DNA of 64,000 nt from Methanooceanicella nereidis (lineage in GTDB: Archaea > Halobacteriota > Methanocellia > Methanocellales > Methanocellaceae): the NCBI RefSeq assembly GCF_021023085.1, contig NZ_PGCK01000004.1:62001-126000 (forward strand), read 5' to 3'. Under the pieces are notes generated by a model. The model saw only the letters and a list, made by a program, of their open reading frames with translations. It was not told the origin of the DNA and ran no database searches. The first letter of the stretch is position 1. The number at the start of each line of letters is the position of its first letter. The position numbers and the translations under genes were made by a program. Of the stretch, positions 40,094-60,485 are shown one piece after another.

Positions 40094-40505
40094 CGTCGAA
40101 CCGCGTAAAAGAACAAAAAACCGTCGAACCGCGTAAAAGAACAAAAAACCGTCGAACCGCGTAAAAGAACAAAAAACCGTCGAACCGCGTAAAAGAACAA
40201 AAAACCGTCGAACCGCGTAAAAGAACAAAAAACCATCGAACCGCGTAAAAGAACAAAAAACCGTCGAACCGCGTAAAAGAACAAAAAACCATCGAACCGC
40301 GTAAAAGAACAAAAAACCGTCGAACCGCGTAAAAGAACAAAAAACCGTCGAACCGCGTAAAAGAACAAAAAACCATCGAACAACGTGAAAGAACAAAAAA
40401 CCATCGAACAACGTGAAAGAACAAAAAACCATCGAACCGCGTAAAAGAACAAAAAACCATCGAACAACGTGAAAGAACAAAAAACCGTCGAACAACGTAA
40501 ACCAA
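40094..40505. repeat. 28-bp tandem repeat array, 14 units plus a partial unit
   Basis: Units start every 28 bp from 40094 (CGTCGAACCGCGTAAAAGAA then CAAAAAAC). Positions 40094-40485 hold 14 full units; a fifteenth at 40486 decays after about 20 bp. Variants are CG/CA at unit position 2 and CCGCGTAAA/CAACGTGAA in the middle, with the CAACGTGAA type clustered at the right end. There are no spacers, so it is not CRISPR. On the minus strand all three frames stay open because 28 is not divisible by 3; those ORFs are not taken as genes. Confidence 0.97.
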
Positions 40506-40870: not shown

Positions 40871-41905
40871 ATGATAAAAGCCGGAATACTGGGTGCCACG
40901 GGGAATGTGGGGCAGAGGTTCGTGCAATTGCTGGCGGACCACCCGTGGTTCGAGATAACAGCCCTGGCAGCGTCCGAGAGAAGCGCGGGCAAGCCGTATG
41001 GCGAAGTGGCCAAGTGGAAGCTTGAGACCGATCTCCCTGAAAGTGTCAAAGACCTTACCGTGGTCCCCACTGACCCGAAAAAGGTAGACGCTGATATAGT
41101 ATTTTCGGCGCTCCCTGCGGAACTGGCTACGGGCATAGAGAGCGACTTTGCGAAAGCAGGCGTTGTCGTTTGCTCGAACGCGAGCTCTCACCGCATGGAG
41201 AAAGATGTCCCGCTGATGATACCGGAGGTCAATCCGGAGCATCTGGCACTTATCGACATCCAGAAAAAGAACAGGGGATGGGACGGGTGTATCGTCACGA
41301 ATCCCAACTGTTCGACGATCATGATGGTCATGACGCTAAAGCCGCTCATGCAGTTCGGCATCAAGAATATCCATGTGGCCACTCTCCAGGCCATTTCAGG
41401 TGCTGGTTACGATGGTATCCCGTCAATGGCCATACTTGATAATGTCATACCGTACATAGGGAAGGAAGAAGAGAAGATGGAGTCCGAGGCTTTAAAGCTC
41501 CTTGGTACTTTCGACGGCAGCGGTGTTAAGAACGCCCCGTTCTGGGTGAGCGCTGCCTGCCACAGGGTCATGGTCATGGACGGCCACACGATGTCCATAT
41601 GGCTGAGGTCGGAGAAGAACCCGACCGCTGAAGAGGTCAAGGATGCTTTCCTGAAGTTCGACTCCGGGCTGTCAGACCTTCCGACATCGCCAAAGAAGGC
41701 CCTTATAGTCAGGGAGGAGCCTGACAGGCCGCAGCCGAGGATGGACCGCGATCAGGGAAGAGGCATGAGCGTCTCGATAGGCAGGATCAGGTCCGGCCAC
41801 GATAACGCAATAAAATATGTTTGCATGGGCCACAACACCATAAGAGGCGCTGCGGGCGCGAGCATCCTTAACGCGGAACTGTTAAAGAAGAAAGGCTACC
41901 TGTAA
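40871..41905 (+). CDS. asd: Aspartate-semialdehyde dehydrogenase
   Basis: 344 residues from ATG 40871, 5 bp after GGTGA. It reduces aspartyl phosphate with NADPH to aspartate semialdehyde, the branch point to lysine, threonine and homocysteine. Motifs: [13 protein letters not shown] for the cofactor, [11 protein letters not shown] with the catalytic Cys, and [13 protein letters not shown] with the catalytic His. The archaeal/fungal type is indicated by length and pattern. DapA, DapB and the homocysteine proteins of this window use its product. Confidence 0.96.
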
Positions 41906-41938
41906 AGTAGCCTTATAAACTTTTTATTCAATTTTATT
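41894..41938 (+). terminator. Hairpin and T-rich terminator of asd
   Basis: GGCTAC (41894-41899) and GTAGCC (41907-41912) pair across the stop codon, followed by AACTTTTTATTCAATTTTATT. Confidence 0.6.
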
Positions 41939-42253: not shown

Positions 42254-44284
42254 ATGGCAAATATTAGTTCCCGAAATTCAAAACCATACAGGACTTACAT
42301 ATTCAATGTCCATGGTGTCACAAACATGTCGATCGCATCCGCGATCAAGGAGTATCTCGAGTCAAAGGACGGAGTATACTCAGCAGAAATAAGCAGTGAT
42401 ATGAAAACGCTTGTCGCCAACCTGATGCAGAACACATATCCGTGGGAGGTCGAGGAGATGGCGGCGGAGATAGGGTATGCGGTACAGGAGGCCAGGTCGC
42501 CGCTGTTCAGCATAGGAGGGATACTGGAGCCGGTATTGCTGGCAATAACGGCCATAGCGACTATCATCTCTTTCGCCGGCACGAGCATGAACCTCTTAAC
42601 AGGCCCTGCAGCCGAGATTTTAGGGATGTTCATCATATTCATCTGCGGCTACCCGGTACATAAAAAAGCCATCAGCGCTTTGCTAGATAGAAAGATCAGC
42701 CTGGACATATTAGTATCCGTGGCGGTCATATCGCCCCTGTTCTATTCTTACGGCGTCATGGAGCCAGTGTACTATGCCTCGGGCATCATCATATTCGTCG
42801 TTTTATCTGCCAGCATATTTAAAAGGTCCGTCCAGGACCGCTATGAGCAGATGGATTTCTTCCTGCCTTCGGTCGCTCTTAGCGTCACGGACGGAAAAGA
42901 GGCATGGATAAATGCCGAAGACATCAATCCGGGAGACGTTGTCACGGTCAAGTCCGGCTACAGGATACCTGTGGACGGCACGGTCGACGATGGCGAAGGC
43001 ACCTTAGTGACGGTTATCGGGGGAGATAACGAGAAGGTAAGAAAGGGTGTCCGGGTCAATGCGGGCGATATACTTCTGGAAGGCGACGTCACTGTCAAGG
43101 CGGCAAAAAAAGCTATCGACTCGGTACTCAGGCCTGCAGCAGATGCTTTCAGGGAGGCAAGAAAGCCCAGGGAATTCAATAAAGGATACCCGAAGTCCGT
43201 CGAGAGAGTGCTGCTGTTCGTATCATTATTCGGGTCGATATTCGTATATTTCTTCTTTAACAGCACTGTCTCGGCAGTGGCGATATTATTAGTGGCCACG
43301 CCTCTTGCCATGTTCATTGCATGGCCCGTGTCCATAGTCACGGGAAAACTGGCAGCATCCAATGCCGGGGCTGATTTCTCATCACACGGCTCAATAGAGA
43401 GAATGAGCCTTGCGGACACTGTCGTCATAAGCGGCATCGAGTCGCTCGTCAATAAGTCCACGGTCTCTGACGTTATACCTGTGCAGGGATACACTGAGAA
43501 TGATATGAAGTCCGCCATAGCGGCTTACGGCGGCGATGAGAATGACCCGCTGGTCAAAGCGGCCAGGGAATATGCCTCAGGGGTGGCCCCATCGGAGGAA
43601 TATTCGCTCAAGAGCCTTGCAGAGGCCTCAAGGGTAGTGCAGATCCCCGCGGATTCCCATAAGCGTGCAAACGCGCTTGAGAATGAAGGTAAGCTTGTCA
43701 GATATGCTCTCAAAGGGCGCGAGTTCATGGGCATTGTCGCGTTTGATCTTGAGGTCAGCGAGGAGACAAAGAAAGCCGTGGAAAGCCTTGGCAAAGACAA
43801 AGCAAAAGCCAAAGAGGTCGTGCTGATCTCCAGGAACCCTGCAGGTTTATCCGAGGTCATCGGAAGGAAGGCCGGCATAACTAACATAAAGTCCAGGATG
43901 GACGACAGGGAAAGGCTGGAACTGGTCAAAAAGATGGTAGAGAATAAAAAAGAAGTCGTTGTCGTGTCAAAAAGAGGCGACTTAACAAGGTTTGCCGGAA
44001 ACTCCGGATCAGTGGTGATCGGGAACGCCATGCCGGGTTTCGAGGGCCTTGACGATGCCAGGTGCGACTCTTTTGCGGTGGTTCCGGGCCTGATATCGCT
44101 GGCGAAGAAGAGCCTGAAGCGCGCGAACGAAGGTTTGAACTTCGGGTTCTATTTCAATACTTTTGCGGTCATCGCGGCTTCTCTTGGAGTGATCGACATA
44201 CAGATCGCCTCGCTTATGATCATCACCAGCGTGGTCGTGGTAGCCACGAACTCGATGAGGTCGTATTTCATAAGCCTCAAGTAA
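42254..44284 (+). CDS. P-type-ATPase-like protein lacking all catalytic motifs
   Basis: 676 residues co-linear with heavy-metal (P1B) ATPases. An HMA-like domain (15-80) lacks the CxxC metal site (HGVTNMSIAS). Membrane segments follow, then an actuator domain with GGDN at 256-259 instead of TGES. The membrane CPC motif is ATP at 348-350. The phosphorylation site DKTGT is replaced by SGIES at 393-397 (DTVVISGIESLV). TGD is replaced by SRN near 526, and GDGxND by a KRGDLT-type stretch near 573. The C-terminal helices (NFGFYFNTFAVIAAS) still match CopA. It therefore cannot form the aspartyl phosphate. There are no frameshifts or stops, so the reading frame has been maintained. It could be a regulatory or structural pseudo-ATPase. 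Confidence 0.85.
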   Translation: MANISSRNSKPYRTYIFNVHGVTNMSIASAIKEYLESKDGVYSAEISSDMKTLVANLMQNTYPWEVEEMAAEIGYAVQEARSPLFSIGGILEPVLLAITAIATIISFAGTSMNLLTGPAAEILGMFIIFICGYPVHKKAISALLDRKISLDILVSVAVISPLFYSYGVMEPVYYASGIIIFVVLSASIFKRSVQDRYEQMDFFLPSVALSVTDGKEAWINAEDINPGDVVTVKSGYRIPVDGTVDDGEGTLVTVIGGDNEKVRKGVRVNAGDILLEGDVTVKAAKKAIDSVLRPAADAFREARKPREFNKGYPKSVERVLLFVSLFGSIFVYFFFNSTVSAVAILLVATPLAMFIAWPVSIVTGKLAASNAGADFSSHGSIERMSLADTVVISGIESLVNKSTVSDVIPVQGYTENDMKSAIAAYGGDENDPLVKAAREYASGVAPSEEYSLKSLAEASRVVQIPADSHKRANALENEGKLVRYALKGREFMGIVAFDLEVSEETKKAVESLGKDKAKAKEVVLISRNPAGLSEVIGRKAGITNIKSRMDDRERLELVKKMVENKKEVVVVSKRGDLTRFAGNSGSVVIGNAMPGFEGLDDARCDSFAVVPGLISLAKKSLKRANEGLNFGFYFNTFAVIAASLGVIDIQIASLMIITSVVVVATNSMRSYFISLK

Positions 44285-44350: not shown

Positions 44351-44908
44351 ATGAAGGTGCTGCGAGCAATAACAGTGGTTTTTGTTATCCTTTATTTAGC
44401 CGCTATTCCAATACATTGTATTAGCATGGGAAGCATAAGCGGAATGGTCACGTCCGGCGATAACGCGGCCATACCCGATGCGACCGTAGCACTCTGGATG
44501 ATGGACGGGGACGTGATCACAGGATTACTTGAGATCGAAGACAATCCCCAGTACACCACAAACCAGACAAGCCCTGTTGTCGGGCTATATTCATTTTTCA
44601 ACGTGCCGTCCGGCGTGTATAATATCACCGCGGAAAAGGACGGGTACTGGTTCTTCACGGAAGCCGTGGTAACGGAAGGCACCACTACGGCAAATATCGT
44701 CATACCGGAATATGTGGCCTCGGAATACCCTGCCGGTCTTGGGCCGTATGAGCCGCCTGAAAGGCAATATTTCACGTATGTACCGGTAATTATAAACAGG
44801 ACGCCTCCGGAGCCGACTATAACGAGGACGTCGGGCCCGGATATTTTAGCCTTTGCTATAGCCATGTTATTCGCCCTCTCCATCGTAAGAAAGAGAAAGA
44901 AAATATGA
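44351..44908 (+). CDS. Surface protein with carboxypeptidase-regulatory-like fold
   Basis: 185 residues: N-terminal signal or anchor (VLRAITVVFVILYLAAIPIH), then a CarboxypepD_reg/SpaA-like beta domain (GSISGMVTSGDNAAIPDATV ... YSFFNVPSGVYNITAEKDGY), a Pro/Thr-rich spacer, and a C-terminal tripartite end SGPDILAFAIAMLFALSIVRKRKK. The tail (short motif, hydrophobic helix, basic cluster) resembles archaeosortase sorting signals, though not an exact match to PGF- or PEF-CTERM motifs. Extracytoplasmic; function unknown. Confidence 0.7.
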   Translation: MKVLRAITVVFVILYLAAIPIHCISMGSISGMVTSGDNAAIPDATVALWMMDGDVITGLLEIEDNPQYTTNQTSPVVGLYSFFNVPSGVYNITAEKDGYWFFTEAVVTEGTTTANIVIPEYVASEYPAGLGPYEPPERQYFTYVPVIINRTPPEPTITRTSGPDILAFAIAMLFALSIVRKRKKI

Positions 44909-60125: not shown

Positions 60126-60485
60126 GTGAAAATATCTAAATTAGTTTTAGTCCTCGTTCTCGCAGTATCGATATCAGCGATCGTAATGCCCGCAAATGCA
60201 TTCTTCGGATCCCCGTTCGGCGGATTAGGATGCGGAGTACCATTCGGCGGATGCGGGTTCGGATTCCCGTTCGGGACAAGCTCGTTCACAAGCACAGCTG
60301 CGTTCCAGGCGACCAGCTCATTTAGCACTGTTGGTGGCGTCGGATTCGGATGCGGAGTACCATTCGGCGGATGCGGGTTCGGATACCCATTCGGAGGATT
60401 CGGACTGGGAAGCTGCGGATTAGGAGGCTTCGGACTGGGAAGCTGCGGATTAGGAGGCTTCGGACTGGGAAGCTGCGGATTCTAA
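60126..60485 (+). CDS. Secreted Cys/Gly/Phe-rich repeat protein
   Basis: 119 residues, GTG start. A clear signal peptide (MKISKLVLVLVLAVSISAIVMPANA) precedes a chain made mostly of Gly, Phe, Cys, Leu and Pro. Two long motifs GCGVPFGGCGFG(F/Y)PFG and three tandem copies of FGLGSCGLGG are seen. At DNA level the latter is a 30-bp direct repeat (60399-60428, 60429-60458, 60459-60482). The nine cysteines and lack of charged residues suggest a disulfide-linked or metal-binding surface or matrix protein. I know no homologue. Confidence 0.7.
   Translation: MKISKLVLVLVLAVSISAIVMPANAFFGSPFGGLGCGVPFGGCGFGFPFGTSSFTSTAAFQATSSFSTVGGVGFGCGVPFGGCGFGYPFGGFGLGSCGLGGFGLGSCGLGGFGLGSCGF

Follow-up and report, generated by a model that had tools for sequence, protein, structure and literature searches.

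A gene in the genome of Methanooceanicella nereidis encodes a homolog of the heavy-metal P1B ATPases in which the catalytic motifs have been replaced and which, judging from sequence comparison, has very probably been kept as a non-catalytic membrane protein. The gene lies in a stretch of 64,000 nucleotides (here called the window, and its product the window protein) from a 3.19-Mb genome. P-type ATPases are defined by their phosphorylated Asp and, to our knowledge, stand-alone dead members of this group have hardly been described. A dead P1B protein that is selected for would reveal which functions the fold can serve in the absence of ATP.

A P1B ATPase Homolog With Replaced Catalytic Motifs

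The gene starts with ATG and runs through 676 codons with no internal stop, in agreement with the intact frame reported in the initial annotation. Its product of 676 amino acids was aligned by hhalign to 38 intact P1B ATPases with a probability of 100% over residues 17-673 (642 columns), and phmmer matched it end to end to the structures of ZntA and CopA, which bears out the end-to-end P1B homology claimed at the outset. Pfam E1-E2_ATPase (PF00122) matched residues 205-368 (5.7e-19), and the Pfam HMA model gave a weak match below its cut-off at residues 17-54 (0.031). NCBIfam P1B models spanned most of the protein at approximately 30% of their curated cut-off score; for TIGR01511 the score was 118 bits versus a cut-off of 397. 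The domain order is that of P1B ATPases and a crude hydropathy profile fits their helix layout. An AlphaFold model built from the single sequence with no alignment had a pLDDT of 36. The features of the gene are as follows.

42254..44284, + strand: pseudo-P1B-ATPase gene (P0001)
42293..42493, + strand: remnant of an N-terminal HMA-like domain (aa 14-80) lacking CxxC, with GVTNMSI for GMTCxxC, placed by the sub-cut-off Pfam match and the alignment
42641..42652, + strand: I130-C131-G132-Y133, kink in the second membrane helix; C131 is common to the ortholog
42854..43153, + strand: actuator-like domain (aa 201-300, Pfam PF00122), with the core GDVVTVKSGYRIPVDGTV retained and GGDN (aa 256-259) for TGES
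43298..43306, + strand: CPx site in TM6, T349-P350-L351 for C-P-C/H by alignment; Pro present, ligands gone
43382..43408, + strand: SHGSIERMS (aa 377-385), identical in both pseudo-ATPases
43430..43444, + strand: SGIES (aa 393-397) at the DKTGT position, with Ser393 for the phosphorylated Asp by alignment
43454..43708, + strand: shortened N-like domain (aa 401-485), with D431-P432 for HP and no GxG loop
43829..43840, + strand: SRNP (aa 526-529) at the TGDN position by alignment
43967..43981, + strand: SKRGD (aa 572-576) at the GDGxND position, one residue shorter, by alignment
44099..44281, + strand: final two membrane helices (aa 616-676), including FGFYFNTFAVIAAS (aa 630-643), the longest run that the two pseudo-ATPases share unchanged

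The motif replacements were read by aligning the protein with 13 intact P1B ATPases from its family, and this confirmed each of SGIES, GGDN, SRN, the loss of GDGxND and the HMA domain without CxxC as they had first been described. At the phosphorylation site DKTGT is replaced by SGIES, with loss of the Asp that marks an active member, and no intact DKTGT, whose presence elsewhere had been considered a possible objection, was found at any other place in the window protein. The TGES/TGEP motif of the A domain reads GGDN, so that the second G alone survives, and the Glu is gone both here and in the ortholog described below. The CPC/CPH metal motif of TM6 reads TPL in the window protein and APA in the ortholog; both ligand positions are lost and, as a refinement of the initial description, the intramembrane Pro350 is kept. 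In the N domain, EHP is replaced by NDP (in both pseudo-proteins the His is an Asp and the Pro is kept), the GxG nucleotide loop is missing from both, and the domain is approximately 15-30 aa shorter; the stretch between the Asp and TGD motifs measures 133 residues in the window protein versus 147-152 in paralogs. In the P domain, TGDN is replaced by SRNP and GDGIND by SKR-GD, with one residue deleted. The HMA remnant has neither CxxC nor another metal-ligand cluster. Because the window protein has two Cys, far apart in sequence, and four His, with no CPx and no CxxC, heavy-metal binding is unlikely. The protein retains the A-domain structural core and the membrane layout, including the intramembrane Pro, as well as its own two signatures, SHGSIERMS and FGFYFNTFAVIAAS.

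These losses are exceptional and not routine variation, since DKTGT is present in 28 of the 29 P-type open reading frames listed from related genomes (the sole exception is truncated where its locus ends) and since DKTGT, TGE, the CP motif and GDGxND are present in all 13 other P1B ATPases from four genomes of the family. The host genome also encodes two intact P1B ATPases, of the CPC and CPH types, and pumping is therefore covered elsewhere.

Shared Losses and Constraint in an Ortholog From a Second Genus

We compared the window genome with three others of the family, one of which carries an ortholog and two of which come from a third genus. The sole ortholog, found in the 2,957,635-base genome of another Methanocellaceae genus, is a protein of 658 aa with no internal stop and 43% identity over its full length. 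It shares the losses, and a full-length homolog of the kind anticipated by the initial annotation thus exists outside the host genome. Copies of this gene with DKTGT and CPC in close relatives, which had been raised as possible counterevidence, were not found. Recent decay and a sequencing frameshift were each considered and ruled out on the grounds that the ortholog shares the losses.

The ortholog fills the lost motifs differently, with DGLGS for SGIES, SAP for ATP, SAEP for SRNP and GRG-CE for SKR-GD, so the proposal that the SGIES and ATP replacements are conserved among homologs failed; in DGLGS the Asp of the phosphorylation site is still there, but the following Lys and Thr are missing. 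The 38 intact ATPases agree at 85% identity or more in 98 columns. Of these, 35 are preserved in the window protein and 32 in the ortholog; the 25 kept by both are mostly structural Gly, Pro and Ala. Both have lost 56 of the 98, and in 25 of these 56 they carry the same new residue, besides shared deletions. Examples are HP to DP, the P-domain Lys to Arg, and the Thr of TGD to Ser. This pattern, expected of losses older than the divergence of the two genera, dates them to before that divergence.

For this pair, the Nei-Gojobori method gave a dN of 0.52, a dS of 1.89 (near saturation) and a rough dN/dS of approximately 0.27. Intact P1B ortholog pairs from the same genomes had a dN of approximately 0.20 with saturated dS, which makes the dN of the pseudo-ATPase pair approximately 2.5 times higher. 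A neutral simulation to the same divergence, under a simple model with uniform substitutions, produced approximately 26 in-frame stops per lineage and a protein identity of approximately 8%, versus the observed 0 and 43%. Constraint extends over all domains: identity was lowest in the HMA remnant (33%), rising to 56% in TM7-8 and 57% in the first P segment; the A, N and P regions (38-57%) are constrained about as much as the membrane part. The run FGFYFNTFAVIAAS in TM7 comprises 14 consecutive residues identical in both proteins, and the codon usage and GC3 of the gene are those of neighboring genes. The gene therefore appears clearly constrained by purifying selection, as estimated from two sequences with dS near saturation. 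The ortholog with shared losses and this nominal dN/dS favor a maintained pseudo-ATPase over recent decay, as had been suggested, and the dN/dS well below 1 predicted for it was obtained, for one pair with dS near saturation.

The pseudo-ATPase is absent from the two genomes of the third genus, in which no gene remnant was found between asd and the gene that follows the pseudo-ATPase in the window. Since two genomes of the family lack it, the gene is dispensable; either the third genus lost it or it originated on the lineage of the two genera that carry it. These two group together in a weak CopA tree (support 87). In a tree, the pseudo-ATPase pair sits on a stem of approximately 4 changes per site, a long-branch case that gives no P1B subfamily placement. 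Among 394 genomes of the phylum, no other homolog reached 1e-32 with a profile of the two sequences. Contig scans with patterns derived from the pair returned no relative, and these scans say little, as the known ortholog was not returned either.

Genomic Context

Upstream of the pseudo-ATPase lie dapA and dapB, both named from sequence, and asd, assigned by Pfam. An RNase Z-like gene comes after the gene immediately downstream. No metal-related gene was recognized in the neighborhood. Two flanking features were considered.

41892..41914, no strand assigned: hairpin at the end of asd, listed on the - strand by the scan; when read on the + strand, the palindrome is followed by a T-rich run
44351..44908, + strand: downstream gene for an envelope-type protein of 185 aa with a hydrophobic N terminus, a carboxypeptidase-regulatory-like domain and a hydrophobic C terminus

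The hairpin weakly suggests a possible terminator of asd, in which case the pseudo-ATPase would start its own transcript. The carboxypeptidase-regulatory-like domain of the 185-aa protein scored 31.9 bits in Pfam, just under the cut-off of 32.3. The downstream gene lies within 70 bases of the pseudo-ATPase in both genomes that carry the latter. It is also present in the two family genomes without a pseudo-ATPase, where the gap between asd and this gene is approximately 90 bases in one and 870 bases in the other. Because the downstream gene also occurs alone, a partnership between the two proteins is a lead only.

Approximately 10 more matches to the 185-aa carboxypeptidase-regulatory-like protein occur in the host genome, and every other family genome has several. 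In the genome of the ortholog, a divergent radical SAM gene (L031:11415-13076) lies upstream of the pseudo-ATPase; synteny is broken on the upstream side, as this gene takes the place of asd. Between dapB and asd in the window, at 40094-40501, a 28-base unit (CGTCGAACCGCGTAAAAGAACAAAAAAC) is repeated head to tail in 14.6 copies with 95% matches and no spacers, and this array creates long spurious open reading frames on the - strand. A small stretch at 60206-60481 also contains several short tandem repeats, their periods being 15-30 bases.

Discussion

We propose that a P1B ancestor lost catalysis and its metal ligands before the two Methanocellaceae genera split, and that selection has since retained the gene, presumably for a membrane role that needs no catalysis. 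In P-type ATPases, the Post-Albers cycle depends on the Asp, the Mg-binding Asp residues, TGE and the nucleotide loop, and a protein that lacks them cannot complete it. The window protein would then form no aspartyl-phosphate intermediate and pump no metal, and its role would be exerted through the folded membrane part and the A-like domain, in the manner of a scaffold or a regulatory subunit. The likeliest partners would be the envelope-type protein encoded just downstream or an intact P1B pump of the cell. We propose the scaffold or regulatory type of role only tentatively. We give roughly even chances to a broader reading, in which the two proteins belong to a family of free-standing archaeal pseudo-P-type ATPases, recognizable by the two signatures named above, that has turned the whole P1B fold to non-hydrolytic use in the membrane, as a scaffold or regulatory subunit. 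Counting against a retained non-catalytic protein are the number of sequences (two), a dN faster than that of intact orthologs, the lack of the gene in two genomes of the family, and the Asp still seen in the ortholog.

That higher dN, together with the differing letters at some lost motifs and the absence from two genomes, speaks for slow decay, in which a P1B gene without function is drifting and its open frame survives by chance. Such drift is nevertheless improbable given frames of 676 and 658 codons intact at near-saturated dS, the stops and low identity expected from the neutral simulation, the 14 invariant consecutive residues of TM7 and the native codon usage. The Asp in DGLGS could also point to an altered but active ATPase with catalysis shifted to other residues, and catalytic residues have migrated in some pseudoenzymes (PMC10211241). 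We consider this highly improbable, as the window protein has Ser for the Asp and as both proteins lack TGD, GDGxND, TGE, the GxG loop and the P-domain Lys (K to R).

If the protein was instead retained for its membrane part, the eight helices might form a passive channel or facilitator through which an ion or small molecule moves downhill with no need for ATP. The preserved membrane part with Pro350 and the high conservation of TM7-8 are compatible with this, but no known ligand set is left in the membrane, and A-, P- and N-like domains that would be superfluous in a channel are constrained at 38-57% identity; a passive channel is therefore unlikely. We regard as rather improbable the idea of a metal sensor or metallochaperone receptor acting through the HMA remnant and the membrane kink. 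An HMA-like remnant does exist, and both proteins have C604 as well as C131, which lies in the helix that provides the platform of P1B pumps. However, the HMA remnant is the least conserved domain, no metal gene lies nearby, and Cys and His are few. The metal-sensor role suggested by the initial annotation is thus disfavored: the HMA CxxC, the CPx cysteines and the His clusters are gone, and C131, C604 and H378 are the only Cys and His residues that the pair shares, with no metal motif among them. A retained, non-catalytic scaffold or regulatory protein remains our preferred reading.

Comparison With Known Systems

A search of a limited open-access set, which is weak evidence, found no description of a free-standing P1B pseudo-ATPase. 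The initial annotation knew of no previously described family of P-type ATPases that had lost all these motifs. This holds in part: a P4-ATPase-like domain without most of the signature residues has been reported in Plasmodium falciparum GCbeta (PMC6592433), although that domain is part of a cyclase fusion and of another subfamily. A degenerate P-type domain is thus already known, and the window protein would be a pseudoenzyme of a known family. For annotation it would be a caution that a domain match alone ("heavy metal translocating ATPase") can mislead.

With the P1B ATPases (CopA/CopB/ZntA; TIGR01511, TIGR01525; PDB 4umv, 3j09) the window protein has in common the domain order, an eight-helix-like membrane layout, the A-domain core and the intramembrane Pro, but it lacks their phosphorylation Asp, TGE, TGD, GDGxND, HP His, GxG, CPx cysteines and CxxC, and its identity to them is 21-26%, with scores far under the curated cut-offs. 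Whereas the GCbeta domain is eukaryotic, of the P4 subfamily and fused to a guanylate cyclase, the window protein is archaeal, P1B-like and free-standing. According to reviews (PMC5106787, PMC10211241), pseudoenzymes have lost catalytic residues while fold and selection are kept, and they typically scaffold or regulate an active relative; the window protein resembles pseudoenzymes in general in that catalysis appears lost while fold and selection appear kept.
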